Positions 10,267-14,347 of a stretch of DNA of 27,272 nt are shown in pieces (within the stretch, counting starts at the first letter, position 1; each line of letters opens with the position of its first letter). The notes below the pieces were generated by a model. That model searched no databases. It was not told the DNA's origin and saw only the letters and a program-made list of their open reading frames with translations. The stretch is from IMG/VR virus record IMGVR_UViG_3300020394_000046, positions 1 through 27,272 of that record. One strand, written 5' to 3'. Position numbers and translations under genes: made by a program. This DNA is from a virus.

Positions 10267-10509
10267 TTATTTCCCTATTTGCATCCACAGTGATGCGGCT
10301 ATGAATGTTATTACTGCTACGGTTGACATCTTTACAATAGTAGACCACACACCTCTACGTGTATCACGCCACGTTTCTAATAAGTTACGCATCTCGATTA
10401 TATCTTTACGAGCATCATCATCATGCAATCCTACTTCACGCAATGCTGCTGTAGCACCACGCTTGGCTGCACGATCTAGCATATCTTCTAATTCTTCTGG
10501 TGTAATCAT
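10267..10509 (-). CDS. Small single-pass membrane protein, DUF6127-like
   Basis: 80 residues. The N-terminal helix (TPEELEDMLDRAAKRGATAALREVGL) is followed by DDDARKDIIEMRNLLETW, a basic RDTRRG turn, and one C-terminal membrane helix (VWSTIVKMSTVAVITFIAASLWM). This layout resembles DUF6127, a family I associate with alphaproteobacterial phages and gene transfer agents; the match is from memory. It overlaps the radical SAM gene by ATGA and ends 3 bases before the 718-residue gene. The predicted topology would put the charged helix inside the cell. A holin accessory or pinholin-like role is possible but unproven. Confidence 0.6.
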   Translation of the reverse strand: MITPEELEDMLDRAAKRGATAALREVGLHDDDARKDIIEMRNLLETWRDTRRGVWSTIVKMSTVAVITFIAASLWMQIGK

Positions 10510-11318
10510 GCTGCACTCAACACTTCTTTACTTTTGTTTCCATAAAGAGTTCCATCTATGTTACAATTCTTACATGGTGACATTGATCTGTTCTCTCTTA
10601 GTCTTGCTCTAAATCTTTGTAAGGCCATATTGTTTACCCATATGTCTCTTACACTGGTTTTCATAACGTTACCAAACCGTACCTTCTTAGTCCAATCTTG
10701 GCAACAGAGTAGTACATCACCATCGTAATGTATGTTCATAGCGTAGAAGGGTAAGTTACATGTAGTATTCACACTTTTGTCTTCGAAGTTGTAACCTGCC
10801 CTGTTACTTAGTTTTTCAAATCCGTAGTTCTCTTCTTCTGTTTTGTAGTAGTGTTGGAGGAGATACATACTAGGATCTACATCTTCGAATATCTTTTTAA
10901 ATCTGTGTACTTGGTTCGGTCCTTGATACATAGACACAAAGATTTTATTTACCCCTGCTTCGTATAACTCCTTTGCTTTCGCTTTGTTTAGTCTGTCACC
11001 GTTGGTAACTATGTGAATGTTTTCTTGCCAAGGCATTTCATTCTTTAGTATAGTTACAGCTTCTACTAAGTGATTATATAAAAGCGGTTCACCAAACCCA
11101 CAGAACAGTAATCTGTTTTTGTACCCTAGATCAGCTAGTTCTTTTGCTACCTTTTGTATAATGTCTAAACTCATATGTAGGTTCAGGTTAGGGTAGTCTT
11201 TTGATCTAGGACAGAAGTCACACTTTAAGTTACAGAGTTCGGTACACATAAAGTCTATTGCCATGAGAGAACTAAATGGGTCTTCTGTTGACATTCTCTC
11301 TTCCATCGGAGAGAACAT
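10506..11318 (-). CDS. Radical SAM enzyme with SPASM-like C-terminus
   Basis: From the ATG at 11318 it has 270 residues. CNLKCDFC gives the CX3CX2C cluster motif (C29, C33, C36) that binds the 4Fe-4S cluster and S-adenosylmethionine. FCGFGEPL is the GGE-type SAM-binding strand, and IHIVTNGDRL the next conserved strand. The C-terminus has CNLPFYAMNIHYDGDVLLCC (C187, GX4C at C205) and PCKNC (C249, C252), enough to hold one auxiliary cluster, as in SPASM/Twitch enzymes that modify peptides or sugars. The frame extends to a TTG at 11372, but that start lacks a ribosome site and overlaps the previous gene by 37 bases; an ATG at 11294 with GGAAGAG upstream is a third choice. Substrate is unknown. 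Confidence 0.85.
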   Translation of the reverse strand: MFSPMEERMSTEDPFSSLMAIDFMCTELCNLKCDFCPRSKDYPNLNLHMSLDIIQKVAKELADLGYKNRLLFCGFGEPLLYNHLVEAVTILKNEMPWQENIHIVTNGDRLNKAKAKELYEAGVNKIFVSMYQGPNQVHRFKKIFEDVDPSMYLLQHYYKTEEENYGFEKLSNRAGYNFEDKSVNTTCNLPFYAMNIHYDGDVLLCCQDWTKKVRFGNVMKTSVRDIWVNNMALQRFRARLRENRSMSPCKNCNIDGTLYGNKSKEVLSAA

Positions 11319-11335
11319 AGACACTCTGTCTTTCT

Positions 11336-12232
11336 TTATGTATGAAGCTTCTTGCAAAGTTTTTCCTGCCAACCATTAACTGTAATGTCTGTACTTAATT
11401 CGTAATAATACCATGATAGAAATCTAAGTAAATCTTTTTCTTCAGGTATCCAATCAGTAAAGTCTTCAGTTGCGTTTTTGATGACAGGAGATATTTCGCT
11501 CCAAGGCATATTACGGTAACTTACTGTAGGTTTTCTGTTTAATATCGCTAAGAAGTTTACACCACTACAAGCACTAAAAACTCTACTGCTACTCTTTATT
11601 AATTTATTTGTGTTAACACCTTTTGCTAAGTGTGTATATTCTGATAGTAAACCTAGTCTCCTAAACTTTTCCCAATCAGCTTTGATAGTTTCATCTGTTC
11701 CGTTGTTAGATGAGGGATGTGTAGAAAATACTACATGTCTTTTGTTATTTGTTGCATACCTCAGTGCGTCTTGTGTTATGTTTCTGTCTACAGATGTTGG
11801 TTGTTGTAGTGCAAATAAATCAAACTTATCTGGTAGCTCACTTAGGTCAGGGTCTGCTTTTACTATGTTAAATTTATTATTGTTACACTTCTTATATATG
11901 TTTAGTATGTCAGTATCTATGTCGTAGTTTTTGTATCTATACTCAAAAGGATTGTATGTACCTATACTACCACTCCATCCCACTCCAGATATAGGTGCAT
12001 AAGCGGCCCTTTTACTGCAGATAAAATGTTCAAAGTTTGGTGTGCCTTCTGTATATACAAATGTGTCTACATAACTGTTTAAATTTTTTCTATCTACCAA
12101 GTCAATATGTAGAGCGTTTATGTTATACTTAGATAATTCATCTTCAAATGTTTTTAGTGATGGTGCTTTTCTTACTTTACTAATCTTATCGCTTCTGTAT
12201 ATAGCCCATTCTTTTGCATAGGGTTTAAACAT
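11336..12232 (-). CDS. Capsule-polysaccharide glycosyltransferase-like protein
   Basis: 298 residues. The C-terminal half has the pattern of the Capsule_synth (KpsC/KpsS-like, CMP-Kdo-using) and related GT-B transferases: LFALQQPTSVDRN (139-151), a KRHVVFSTHPSS strand with the conserved HP (164-175), and a VFSACSGVNFLAILNRKPTVSY segment (218-239), corresponding to the usual S-G-x-x-x-x-A-L-x-x-x-K-P-V motif. The N-terminal half is less conserved, with GVGWSGSIGTYNPFEYRY near 84-101. The start ATG overlaps the preceding gene by 8 bases. It probably transfers or acts on a sugar of a surface glycan. Recognition is by motif only, so donor and acceptor are unknown. Confidence 0.6.
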   Translation of the reverse strand: MFKPYAKEWAIYRSDKISKVRKAPSLKTFEDELSKYNINALHIDLVDRKNLNSYVDTFVYTEGTPNFEHFICSKRAAYAPISGVGWSGSIGTYNPFEYRYKNYDIDTDILNIYKKCNNNKFNIVKADPDLSELPDKFDLFALQQPTSVDRNITQDALRYATNNKRHVVFSTHPSSNNGTDETIKADWEKFRRLGLLSEYTHLAKGVNTNKLIKSSSRVFSACSGVNFLAILNRKPTVSYRNMPWSEISPVIKNATEDFTDWIPEEKDLLRFLSWYYYELSTDITVNGWQEKLCKKLHT

Positions 12233-12740
12233 CTTTGTCTACTATAAAGCTATTCATGGTTAGTCTTACATGATCGCCTGATTTAAAGTTATGCCATGTG
12301 TGACCTGTCTTACCTGCAAACACCATTGTTCTACTTGGTTGCCACTCTACTTCTTTTACAAAGTTTTTGTCTTTATCGTACAGAAGTGTACCGTAAGACT
12401 TTGCAGGGTGTATGTAAGTTACAAAAGATAATACTTTTCTTTCTATCTCATCGTGTATTCTGTATTCATGATTAGGTAGATTTATACTTATATCTGTTTC
12501 TACCACAGGATTCTTTACTGGTCTATGTTCAAACTTGTCAAGATAGTCTAGTAAATTTACAGAGTTAATTAGTTCTTTTGTTAGAGGTAAGCTATTAAAG
12601 TTAGTTATGTTAGTTGTGTTTTGGCTTAGATATATAGGTCTTGCTTTTATATACTCAATTAGTTCTTCTTTTATTTTACTAGTATCGTACAGATTATCTA
12701 TTACTAAATGATACCAAGGTTCATGACATTTGTATTCCAA
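12225..12740 (-). CDS. 2OG-Fe(II) oxygenase-like protein
   Basis: 171 residues, beta-rich C-terminal half. YRIHDEIERKVLSFVTYIHP carries a candidate HxE metal pair (H96, E98) followed by the typical strand. GTLLYDKD, VEWQPSRTMVFAG and TWHNF give the distal histidine (H150), and HVRLTMNSF the arginine (R159) that would hold 2-oxoglutarate. This is the order expected in 2OG-Fe(II) dioxygenases of the prolyl/aspartyl-hydroxylase type. The start is TTG: it is the only start codon after an in-frame stop, and GAGG lies 7 bases upstream. It overlaps the preceding oxygenase-like gene by 20 bases and the next gene by 8. Substrate unknown; hydroxylation of a sugar, lipid or protein are all possible. Confidence 0.72.
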   Translation of the reverse strand: MEYKCHEPWYHLVIDNLYDTSKIKEELIEYIKARPIYLSQNTTNITNFNSLPLTKELINSVNLLDYLDKFEHRPVKNPVVETDISINLPNHEYRIHDEIERKVLSFVTYIHPAKSYGTLLYDKDKNFVKEVEWQPSRTMVFAGKTGHTWHNFKSGDHVRLTMNSFIVDKDV

Positions 12741-13236
12741 AACTAAACCTCAACTGACTTGTGTAGATAGAGTGCCATATAGGTGCTTCAAATTCTCTAA
12801 TAGTCCAACCCATATTATCTTTATCGTAGTGTGTCTTGCCCTCTTTATCTACCCAAGCAAACCAAGCATCACCTTTTGTAAATGTGTAGTATCTTCTTAC
12901 GCCTGGATTGTCAGAGTTTGTGTGCCATCTCATTGTTGTTTCTGGCAGGTATATCATAGAGTTAGTTAGTTTTATTCCACCTAAATCCTTGCACCATTTT
13001 CTTAGAATTACTCTAGCTTCTAGCTTATCTTCAGCAGAAAATCTTTCGTTTGTGCATATGTCCACAGTTGGTGTACGTGGTTGCGCTCTGTCTTCTGTAG
13101 GAACTTTTTGATTTCTATAATCTTTTTCAGAATCACCATTACTTAAAGGTATTAAATGCCTCCAAGCCTCGCTAGTAAATTTTATTATGTCTTTTAATGG
13201 CTCTAGTTCTTCTTGTTTTATTTCTAGTTTATTCAT
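12721..13236 (-). CDS. Double-stranded beta-helix protein (oxygenase/cupin-like)
   Basis: 171 residues. After a helical N-terminus the core reads MIYLPETTMRWHTNSDNPG (94-112), then RRYYTFTKGDAWFAWVDKEG, GWTIREFEAPIWHSIYTS and QLRFSFGI. H105 with N107 or D109, distal H155 and R163 fit a jelly-roll metal site. The HxD position is Asn, so D109 would have to be the acid or the site differs from classic 2OG oxygenases. The HTNSD..G block resembles a family I associate with marine phages, from memory. It overlaps the 82-residue gene by 4 bases (ATGA) and has AGGATCTTT before its ATG. With the next gene, of the same length, it may form a pair acting on one substrate. Confidence 0.6.
   Translation of the reverse strand: MNKLEIKQEELEPLKDIIKFTSEAWRHLIPLSNGDSEKDYRNQKVPTEDRAQPRTPTVDICTNERFSAEDKLEARVILRKWCKDLGGIKLTNSMIYLPETTMRWHTNSDNPGVRRYYTFTKGDAWFAWVDKEGKTHYDKDNMGWTIREFEAPIWHSIYTSQLRFSFGIQMS
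12748..12751 (-). promoter_or_regulatory. Ribosome binding site for the TTG start at 12740
   Basis: GAGG (minus strand) lies 7 bases before the TTG at 12740 inside the end of the upstream gene. An in-frame TGA just upstream and the lack of any early ATG mean this TTG is the only workable start. Confidence 0.65.
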
Positions 13237-13481
13237 AAAGATCCTATAATGTCAGAAGCTTCTCCTCCTTCTGGTGGTATTTCTGGTGCAATATATTCTT
13301 TAATGCCTATTTTGTCAACTACAGATTTAAGTGCATTGTTATCTATAGTAGAGTCAGGATCATCTACATTAATTGTGTAAGGTATCCATCCAAAATCAGG
13401 ATGATCAAACTCTAAATCAATGTCACCATTCTCTGTGTAAACAGGGTTTCTTACATTATCTGTTGTAAAATCTATATCCAT
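13233..13481 (-). CDS. Small acidic fibre-associated protein, chaperone-like
   Basis: 82 residues, strongly acidic, with the block FDHPDFGWIPYTINVDDPDS followed by a helix (NNALKSVVDKIG) and a Pro/Gly tail. Its start coincides with the last base of the fibre gene stop. Small proteins of this kind directly after a fibre gene usually aid fibre folding or trimerisation; similar short genes follow other fibre genes in this window. No catalytic motif. The role is inferred from position. Confidence 0.5.
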   Translation of the reverse strand: MDIDFTTDNVRNPVYTENGDIDLEFDHPDFGWIPYTINVDDPDSTIDNNALKSVVDKIGIKEYIAPEIPPEGGEASDIIGSL

Positions 13482-14347
13482 TATGAGATCCTTTCATAAA
13501 GACCTGAGAAGAAAGTATAAGTATAATAAGCGTTATCGCTATAATTATATACTTGGCTAGTTGTAGAAGGAGAAATACATCTCCAAGTTCCTGGAAGGTT
13601 ACCGTATATACTACTACCAGCGTAGTTGCTTCCTGCACTATGTGAATAAGTAGCAGTACCTGCGTTGGTTGTTGCTGGAACTCCAACATGCAAACTGCCC
13701 ACAGCCTGTGCTGTTGTTGAGGATGCTGAGTAGTTAAACGTTATAGTAGCACCGCCACTTTGGTTTAAACTAAAAGATCCACCACCTGTCAAACTTGTAC
13801 CAGCAACTAAACTAATCGTTGGATTGTTTGCACCTGAACCAGAAGTGCTAATCTGTCCTGTTGAACTATTATAGTTTATACCTGACCCAGCAGACAAAGC
13901 CCCTCTAGCACGTGCCTCTGTAAAGTATTGGTTATTACCTTCTGTTATATTAGTAGTACTTATATTACTAACTGCTGATGATTGTATCTGTCCAGTTATT
14001 TGACCAGTAACAGATAAGTTACCAGCTATAGTAGCATTTTCATCTACTGTCAGTCCGTCTGTTCTTACTGTACCATCAAAGTGTCCGTCTTTAAACTGTA
14101 GTGCTGTTGTACCTAAGTCTAGTGCGTTAGTGGTTTTTGGTCTTACCTGCGATGCTGTAACAACTAAGTCTTGTGATGGACCTATTGTTTCTATAGGTGC
14201 GCCCTCACCTGCTGTGCCATCGTGAGTGTGACCAGTACCAGCATTAAAAGCTGACTGTATTTGATTGTACTCATCGTTAAAATCATCAGCGTCAATAACA
14301 CTTCCTGTGGTAATATTAGCTGCTGCTTGTCTTGTATAACCTGCCAT
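13481..14347 (-). CDS. Tail fibre protein (T7 gp17 position)
   Basis: 288 residues. The N-terminal virion-anchor block has TTGSVIDADDFNDEYNQIQ and the GHTHDGTAGEGAPI motif common to short-tailed phage fibres. The middle is a repetitive beta shaft (VDENATIAGNLSVTGQITGQ). NNQYFTEARARGALS is a motif shared with the 167-residue gene at the other end of the fibre array. The C-terminus is Ser/Gly/Tyr-rich and may carry the receptor tip. It follows the nozzle gene by 2 bases, the standard place for the T7-type fibre. It probably attaches to the nozzle/adaptor complex. Confidence 0.78.
   Translation of the reverse strand: MAGYTRQAAANITTGSVIDADDFNDEYNQIQSAFNAGTGHTHDGTAGEGAPIETIGPSQDLVVTASQVRPKTTNALDLGTTALQFKDGHFDGTVRTDGLTVDENATIAGNLSVTGQITGQIQSSAVSNISTTNITEGNNQYFTEARARGALSAGSGINYNSSTGQISTSGSGANNPTISLVAGTSLTGGGSFSLNQSGGATITFNYSASSTTAQAVGSLHVGVPATTNAGTATYSHSAGSNYAGSSIYGNLPGTWRCISPSTTSQVYNYSDNAYYTYTFFSGLYERIS

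Follow-up and report, generated by a model that had tools for sequence, protein, structure and literature searches.

The IMG/VR record IMGVR_UViG_3300020394_000046 of a marine virus, whose 27,272 bases form the window analysed here, carries a cassette of enzyme genes downstream of a tail fibre gene: in minus-strand direction OXA, OXB, a glycosyltransferase (GT) and a radical S-adenosylmethionine (SAM) enzyme (RSAM). In our reading these genes supply the enzymes of a host-recognition module that is exchangeable and further contains the fibre tip and a fibre-assembly chaperone. The recurrence of the cassette behind tail fibres in many unrelated phages suggests chemical decoration, either of the part with which the phage grips its host or of the host surface that is gripped. 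Judging from sequence, we give an even chance to our favoured explanation, that the cassette is a mobile module modifying the phage's own fibre.

The four open reading frames (ORFs), at 10506-13236 on the minus strand, had been predicted from the letters of the window to form a coupled four-enzyme cassette between a fibre gene pair and core proteins (hereafter, the original prediction). Their coordinates and the overlaps of 20 bases (OXA/OXB) and 8 bases (OXB/GT) were confirmed, as was their placement, with the tail fibre and a small gene upstream and DUF6127 and internal-virion-type proteins downstream. Coupling extends beyond the cassette: the fibre and chaperone genes share 1 base, the chaperone gene and OXA share 4, and RSAM and the DUF6127 gene share 4. 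The cassette genes evolve under purifying selection, with ratios of nonsynonymous to synonymous substitution rates, taken from unsaturated synonymous sites only, of 0.19-0.26 for OXA, 0.13 for OXB, 0.18-0.27 for GT and 0.06-0.08 for RSAM.

Enzyme families of the cassette

RSAM was verified as a radical SAM enzyme by two Pfam domains, both scoring above their cut-offs (SPASM, 58.5 versus 21.5 bits; Radical_SAM, 56.5 versus 29.5 bits), and by an alignment profile that matched BtrN at E = 2e-39, the runner-up family reaching 1e-9. Its invariant cysteines, C47, C51 and C54 (Cx3Cx2C) together with C205, C223, C267 and C270, are those of a radical SAM/SPASM-twitch protein. The best solved relative, the butirosin radical SAM dehydrogenase BtrN (4m7t), has the same Cx3Cx2C motif and the same four auxiliary-cluster cysteines; it is a twitch enzyme that oxidizes 2-deoxy-scyllo-inosamine, and the four cysteines hold its auxiliary cluster (PMC9012708). 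RSAM differs from it in being phage-encoded, beside a glycosyltransferase and a fibre. By sequence it is a BtrN-like radical SAM/SPASM enzyme that, like BtrN, might oxidize an aminocyclitol or else a sugar alcohol. The region upstream of an internal ATG at 11318 (YIKKDR...) is conserved in relatives, among which locus L016 carries an ATG at this place. GT and RSAM therefore probably overlap, by as many as 37 bases, and RSAM most likely starts from the TTG that precedes the internal ATG or from a site close to this TTG. The short gap that had been proposed before RSAM would hold only if that internal ATG were the start. Elsewhere, a BtrN-like protein about 60% identical to the window RSAM belongs to another phage cassette (L018:5678-8912; also L017, L020, L021 and L024), which also contains a class I/II aminotransferase and DUF454 and is separate from the OXA set. 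Among firehammerviruses, Campylobacter phage CP20 encodes several adjacent radical SAM-like proteins by a glycine amidinotransferase gene (L033:264-5819).

For GT, the proposed capsule-type assignment is right by fold, that of KpsC/WbbB, as judged from a structure model with a predicted local distance difference test score (pLDDT) of 82.5. KpsC was the top Foldseek match, and alignment to KpsC 6mgc gave Z = 12.6 and a root-mean-square deviation of 4.2 over 236 residues spread across the whole model. Compared with the KpsC/WbbB beta-transferases of 3-deoxy-D-manno-oct-2-ulosonic acid (Kdo; 6mgc, 8fux, 5fa0), the model has the same whole-length, two-domain GT-B fold (residues 1-291 or 1-298, Z 11-12.6, about 220-244 residues aligned), whereas most other GT-B proteins reached comparable Z values with only about 130 residues aligned. 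Identity to these enzymes is about 9-14%, and GT differs from them in lacking a Pfam match and in lying in a phage fibre operon. A wider GT profile searched against PDB sequences gave weak matches, all of them WbbB entries (E = 0.19), and the match to WbbB falls in the same motif region; PDB titles mark D160 in KpsC and D232 in WbbB. No Pfam family was found for GT at E up to 1, a PHROG search was likewise unhelpful and no homologue occurred among sequenced phage isolates (50,697 phage records searched).

The remaining two genes had both been called jelly-roll oxygenases, and they fared differently. OXB is well supported by sequence as a small 2-oxoglutarate (2OG)-Fe(II) oxygenase: nine of ten aligned relatives have the iron triad and distal arginine H96-x-E98 (D in some)...H150...R159, the exception being a cyanophage paralogue without the acid at +2 and without the second histidine. 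While the window OXB itself has no match to Pfam 2OG-FeII_Oxy_3, its relatives in L042 and L039 lie narrowly above that cut-off (29.5 and 27.4 versus 27 bits). A PDB sequence search returned unrelated proteins at best (E = 0.26), and with a wider alignment a 'putative hydroxylase' (E = 0.46). The PHROG label of OXB, endonuclease V (E = 4.6e-4), was set aside as weak and probably a mislabelled oxygenase family. In bacterial genomes OXB occurred once, solitary in ordinary bacterial surroundings. Two OXB-like 2OG oxygenases are clustered with KdsA, KdsB and an amidinotransferase in Synechococcus phage S-SCSM2R (L042:1963-6381), a gene content that suggests phage-made Kdo-type sugars.

OXA as a jelly-roll oxygenase is unproven from its sequence. 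Its invariant residues in an alignment of ten divergent phage proteins are W104, H105, N107, S108...W154, H155 and R163, giving the motif WHTNS...WHS...R (HxN...H...R), with the second histidine and the arginine retained in all ten. Because HxN takes the place of the iron-binding acid of the HxD/E...H triad in every one of these relatives, we do not class OXA as a 2OG oxygenase. It had no Pfam or PHROG match, no match in a PDB sequence search and none in bacterial genomes, and among sequenced phage isolates its relatives are single weak matches. Profile comparison with OXB gave no homology signal (probability 1-2%). The structure model has a pLDDT of only 68.6 and no fold match at E = 0.001; a likeness to sensor domains (best Z 5.6) was dismissed as meaningless for a low-confidence model.

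Conservation of the gene set across phages

Loci for comparison (L numbers) were chosen via cassette genes and are partly redundant, the count based on OXB being the least biased. Clustering OXA at 70% identity gave 15 clusters, and in 14 of them GT lies no more than two genes away, usually directly adjacent; the sole cluster without a nearby GT is from a 595-kb phage. A scan with the OXB alignment recovered 80 loci: 20 contain OXA, and GT accompanies it in all 20, versus 6 of the 60 loci that lack OXA. These two sets of counts rule out chance proximity. Since GT accompanies OXA in 14 of the 15 clusters and in several phage types, the cassette is not an accident of one genome; the genes co-occur and are not scattered, and the original prediction withstands the refuting condition that came with it.

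The typical order is fibre, small chaperone-like gene, OXA, GT (one or more) and then OXB and/or RSAM, sometimes with sulfotransferases or FkbM methyltransferases. The window and L004 have OXA-OXB-GT-RSAM; other orders are OXA-GT-OXB-RSAM-methyltransferase-RSAM (L051), OXA-GT-GT-RSAM-OXB-RSAM (L039), OXA-GT-GT-OXB-sulfotransferase (L006) and OXA-GT-GT-GT-OXB with sulfotransferase and FkbM methyltransferase genes (L056). Neighbouring cassette genes overlap or abut in nearly all loci, and the accessory genes (sulfotransferase, FkbM methyltransferase and additional 2OG oxygenases) are glycan or protein decorators. Close relatives of the window retain the fibre, the small gene, OXA, GT and RSAM; OXB is absent from L008, L009 and L010, and in L016 its slot holds another protein with a 2OG signature that the OXB profile still detects. 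The set that had been predicted thus recurs, and because close relatives do without OXB it is not obligatorily one of four genes.

Linkage to the fibre tip and its chaperone

The window is from an HMO-2011-type podovirus, as its tail protein matches such phages; the best match is Roseobacter phage CRP-207 (59.5% identity, 63% of the query covered), and the genes flanking the cassette are collinear with CRP-207 genes. CRP-207 has a different fibre C-terminus and, at the corresponding spot, no such tip (Table 1), small gene or cassette; its DUF6127 homologue directly follows the fibre. In all cassette-bearing contigs of the window group the fibre tip is kept, even where the N-terminal part of the fibre is unrelated: in L003 and L004 the tip is 96% and 58% identical to that of the window while the first 110 fibre residues are unrelated (20% and 28%), and these loci share the chaperone and the cassette with the window besides the tip. 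A second arrangement is found in L083 and L094, which have a CRP-207-like backbone (coat, 145-aa protein and tail proteins 57-81% identical to CRP-207) and where the cassette follows another fibre, in a slot several genes upstream of that of FIB288, the window fibre. As the L003 and L004 tips and the two fibre slots of a single backbone show, the cassette is exchanged together with fibre parts between backbones, as is characteristic of a host-recognition module.

Where the contig extends far enough, OXA in most loci follows a small protein and, before that, a fibre recognized by a PHROG tail fiber match or by collagen repeats; throughout the window group a gene of the CHAP type (Table 1) lies between fibre and OXA. 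The long protein preceding OXA in L052, L056 and L061 has no PHROG match, so its identity as a fibre is read from position. Among 1,833 ORFs, redundant loci included, the fibre C-termini RKxYRT[FY] and LY[EQ]RIS each occurred 14 times and always two genes before OXA. Neither family of fibre tips had a match among the sequenced phage isolates. In L005:6502-7200, L045:5508-6212 and L048:5508-6209, the fibre-adjacent small gene, which there precedes GT, is fused to a methyltransferase-like domain (a weak match, E = 0.0025); in L047:5861-6154 it encodes a free 97-aa protein without this domain. Collagen-like fibres occur in L039, L083 and L094. The collagen-like tail fibre at L039:3-1610 and L040:1-1452 contains an unbroken run of about 140-157 GXY triplets, many of them GPT or GQK, and is followed by the cassette and by further PHROG 2OG-oxygenase-type genes.

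Organization of the window

Every sizeable gene between 27208 and 994 lies on the minus strand. The sole sizeable plus-strand gene near the left end (94-801) resembles homing-endonuclease-type PHROGs. Since promoter-like and terminator-like matches in the window were no better than chance, the late expression that had been proposed for the cassette is drawn from gene position. No transmembrane stretch was predicted in any cassette enzyme.

Table 1 Genes of the fibre-linked module and its right-hand flank in the window
Feature	Description	Coordinates	Strand	Evidence or remark
FIB288	Tail fibre	13481..14347	-	Cassette-associated tip formed by the last ~75 residues (13481-13705)
CHAP	82 aa, small protein of fibre-assembly type, encoded between fibre and cassette	13233..13481	-	PHROG tail fiber assembly, E 6e-5
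OXA	171 aa, first enzyme-like cassette gene	12721..13236	-	HxN...H...R motif
OXB	171 aa, 2OG-Fe(II) oxygenase-like, TTG start	12225..12740	-	Motif and Pfam matches of relatives
GT	298 aa, predicted GT-B glycosyltransferase, KpsC/WbbB Kdo-transferase fold	11336..12232	-	Structure model
RSAM	288 aa, radical SAM/SPASM (twitch), BtrN-like	10506..11372	-	Pfam and BtrN profile match
DUF6127 gene	Flanks the exchangeable unit on the right, outside it	10267..10509	-	Pfam DUF6127, E 2.5e-22

Possible modification of the fibre or of the host surface

The original prediction had offered three targets: the fibre, the host surface and a secreted product. Its emphasis on sugars and the virion gains from the KpsC/WbbB fold, the constant post-fibre position in different phage types and the fusion of the small gene to a methyltransferase-like domain, while sequence does not decide between fibre and host surface, and the secreted product lacks positive evidence, with no transmembrane stretches predicted. 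Our favoured explanation starts from the families of GT, RSAM and OXB (the last by motif and relatives), the gene order, the linkage to the fibre and the exchange with its tip, and from these we infer a substrate, a sugar, an order of reactions and a benefit. Modification would take place during fibre production, with the chaperone present. OXB, perhaps with OXA, may hydroxylate fibre residues or a bound sugar; the KpsC-type GT could attach a Kdo-like sugar drawn from the host pool of cytidine monophosphate-Kdo (CMP-Kdo); and the BtrN-like RSAM would oxidize a hydroxyl group on a sugar, a residue being the less likely target. The receptor-binding fibre would thereby end up decorated. This proposal draws on the co-occurrence of GT with OXA, the position behind the fibre, the two fibre slots, the shared tips, the small-gene fusion, the decorating accessory genes, the predicted lack of transmembrane stretches and the precedents of mimivirus L230 and mycobacteriophage glycans. 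Rather doubtful is a fuller version, a mobile fibre-maturation system in which a soluble radical SAM enzyme, a dioxygenase and a Kdo-type transferase behind matching tips, with optional sulfation or methylation, make the fibre a glycoprotein with an unusual sugar and OXA is an HxN iron enzyme.

Several points weigh against modification of the fibre. The acceptors of KpsC and WbbB are glycolipid or polysaccharide, not proteins. In the seven sequences of the window group, divergence of the tip follows that of the small chaperone gene (r = 0.91) and hardly that of OXA (r = 0.21) or GT (r = 0.13), and because of these low correlations the enzymes may not recognize the tip itself. OXA may be a pseudoenzyme, the window fibre has no collagen repeats and a receptor-masking function would likewise travel with the fibre tip.

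The last point leads to a possible, though less probable, explanation, in which the enzymes make or alter a Kdo-containing residue of lipopolysaccharide or capsule that the matching tip uses as receptor, which would prevent renewed adsorption and superinfection or keep progeny from being lost to debris. The receptor and the enzyme masking it would be expected to travel together, KpsC and WbbB are Kdo transferases of capsule and O-antigen, a cyanophage relative of OXB is clustered with KdsA and KdsB, and pelagimyophage host-recognition clusters with glycosyltransferases and radical SAM cassettes have been read as O-chain modification (PMC7029224). Set against this are the predicted solubility of the cassette enzymes with no membrane partner or flippase, the coupling of the cassette to virion genes, the fusion in one lineage of the small fibre-adjacent protein to an enzyme-like domain and, on one backbone, a cassette whose position shifts along with that of the fibre before it.

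It is unlikely that the cassette has nothing to do with fibre or receptor and serves auxiliary metabolism or makes a secreted small molecule late in infection. BtrN does belong to an antibiotic pathway (PMC9012708), and relatives of RSAM accompany an aminotransferase and DUF454 at sites remote from fibres, but fibres adjoin OXA cassettes in nearly every backbone and the cassette has neither a transporter nor a complete pathway. Still less probable is a division of labour in which RSAM and the oxygenases act on a fibre peptide, by cross-linking or hydroxylation, and GT is a separate decoration. SPASM enzymes often modify peptides, and the fibres before OXA share C-termini; those C-termini, however, are parts of tip domains homologous to one another and may have a structural role, the loci sharing them were selected for cassette genes, and BtrN, the closest solved relative of RSAM, acts on an aminocyclitol. 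DNA hypermodification, brought to mind by the resemblance of a 2OG oxygenase, a glycosyltransferase and a radical SAM enzyme to phage base-modification sets, is the least probable, given that no DNA-modification dioxygenase or DNA glucosyltransferase family was matched in the Pfam and PHROG searches, that the fold of GT is of the KpsC/WbbB type and that the cassette sits with fibres and not with replication genes.

Precedents and significance

Phage glycosyltransferases near fibres are already known. In the part of PMC7029224 on the pelagimyophage host-recognition cluster, a hypervariable fibre region with glycosyltransferase and radical SAM cassettes is described that is similar to the present one; as given there, it differs in that GT8 enzymes predominate and a fixed OXA-GT-OXB-RSAM set is absent, and it is read as O-chain modification. 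A virus-encoded hydroxylase and glycosyltransferase are also combined in mimivirus L230, which hydroxylates and glucosylates viral collagen (PMC4691112); unlike the cassette, L230 is a fused two-domain enzyme of other families, acts on a collagen-like protein of a giant amoebal virus and comes with no radical SAM enzyme. Mycobacteriophages glycosylate their own virion proteins at the C-termini, a precedent for fibre modification, with the glycans on capsid and tail tube and not on the fibre (as cited in PMC12619734). The literature searched yielded no account of the recurrent OXA/GT/OXB/RSAM set, of its link to the fibre tip or of a KpsC-type phage transferase, and the text of the HMO-2011 survey has no mention of radical SAM, glycosyl or oxygenase. 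In sequenced isolates the cassette is represented by distant relatives of single genes only.

The host range of phages is usually read from the fibre sequence alone. If the fibre is decorated by co-carried enzymes, receptor-binding prediction based on sequence or structure would overlook a portion of the ligand, and fibres made recombinantly without the cassette would be wrong. If the cassette instead rewrites the host receptor, it would be a compact superinfection-exclusion module tied to the identity of the tip. Under either explanation, the module recurs in unrelated marine phages.

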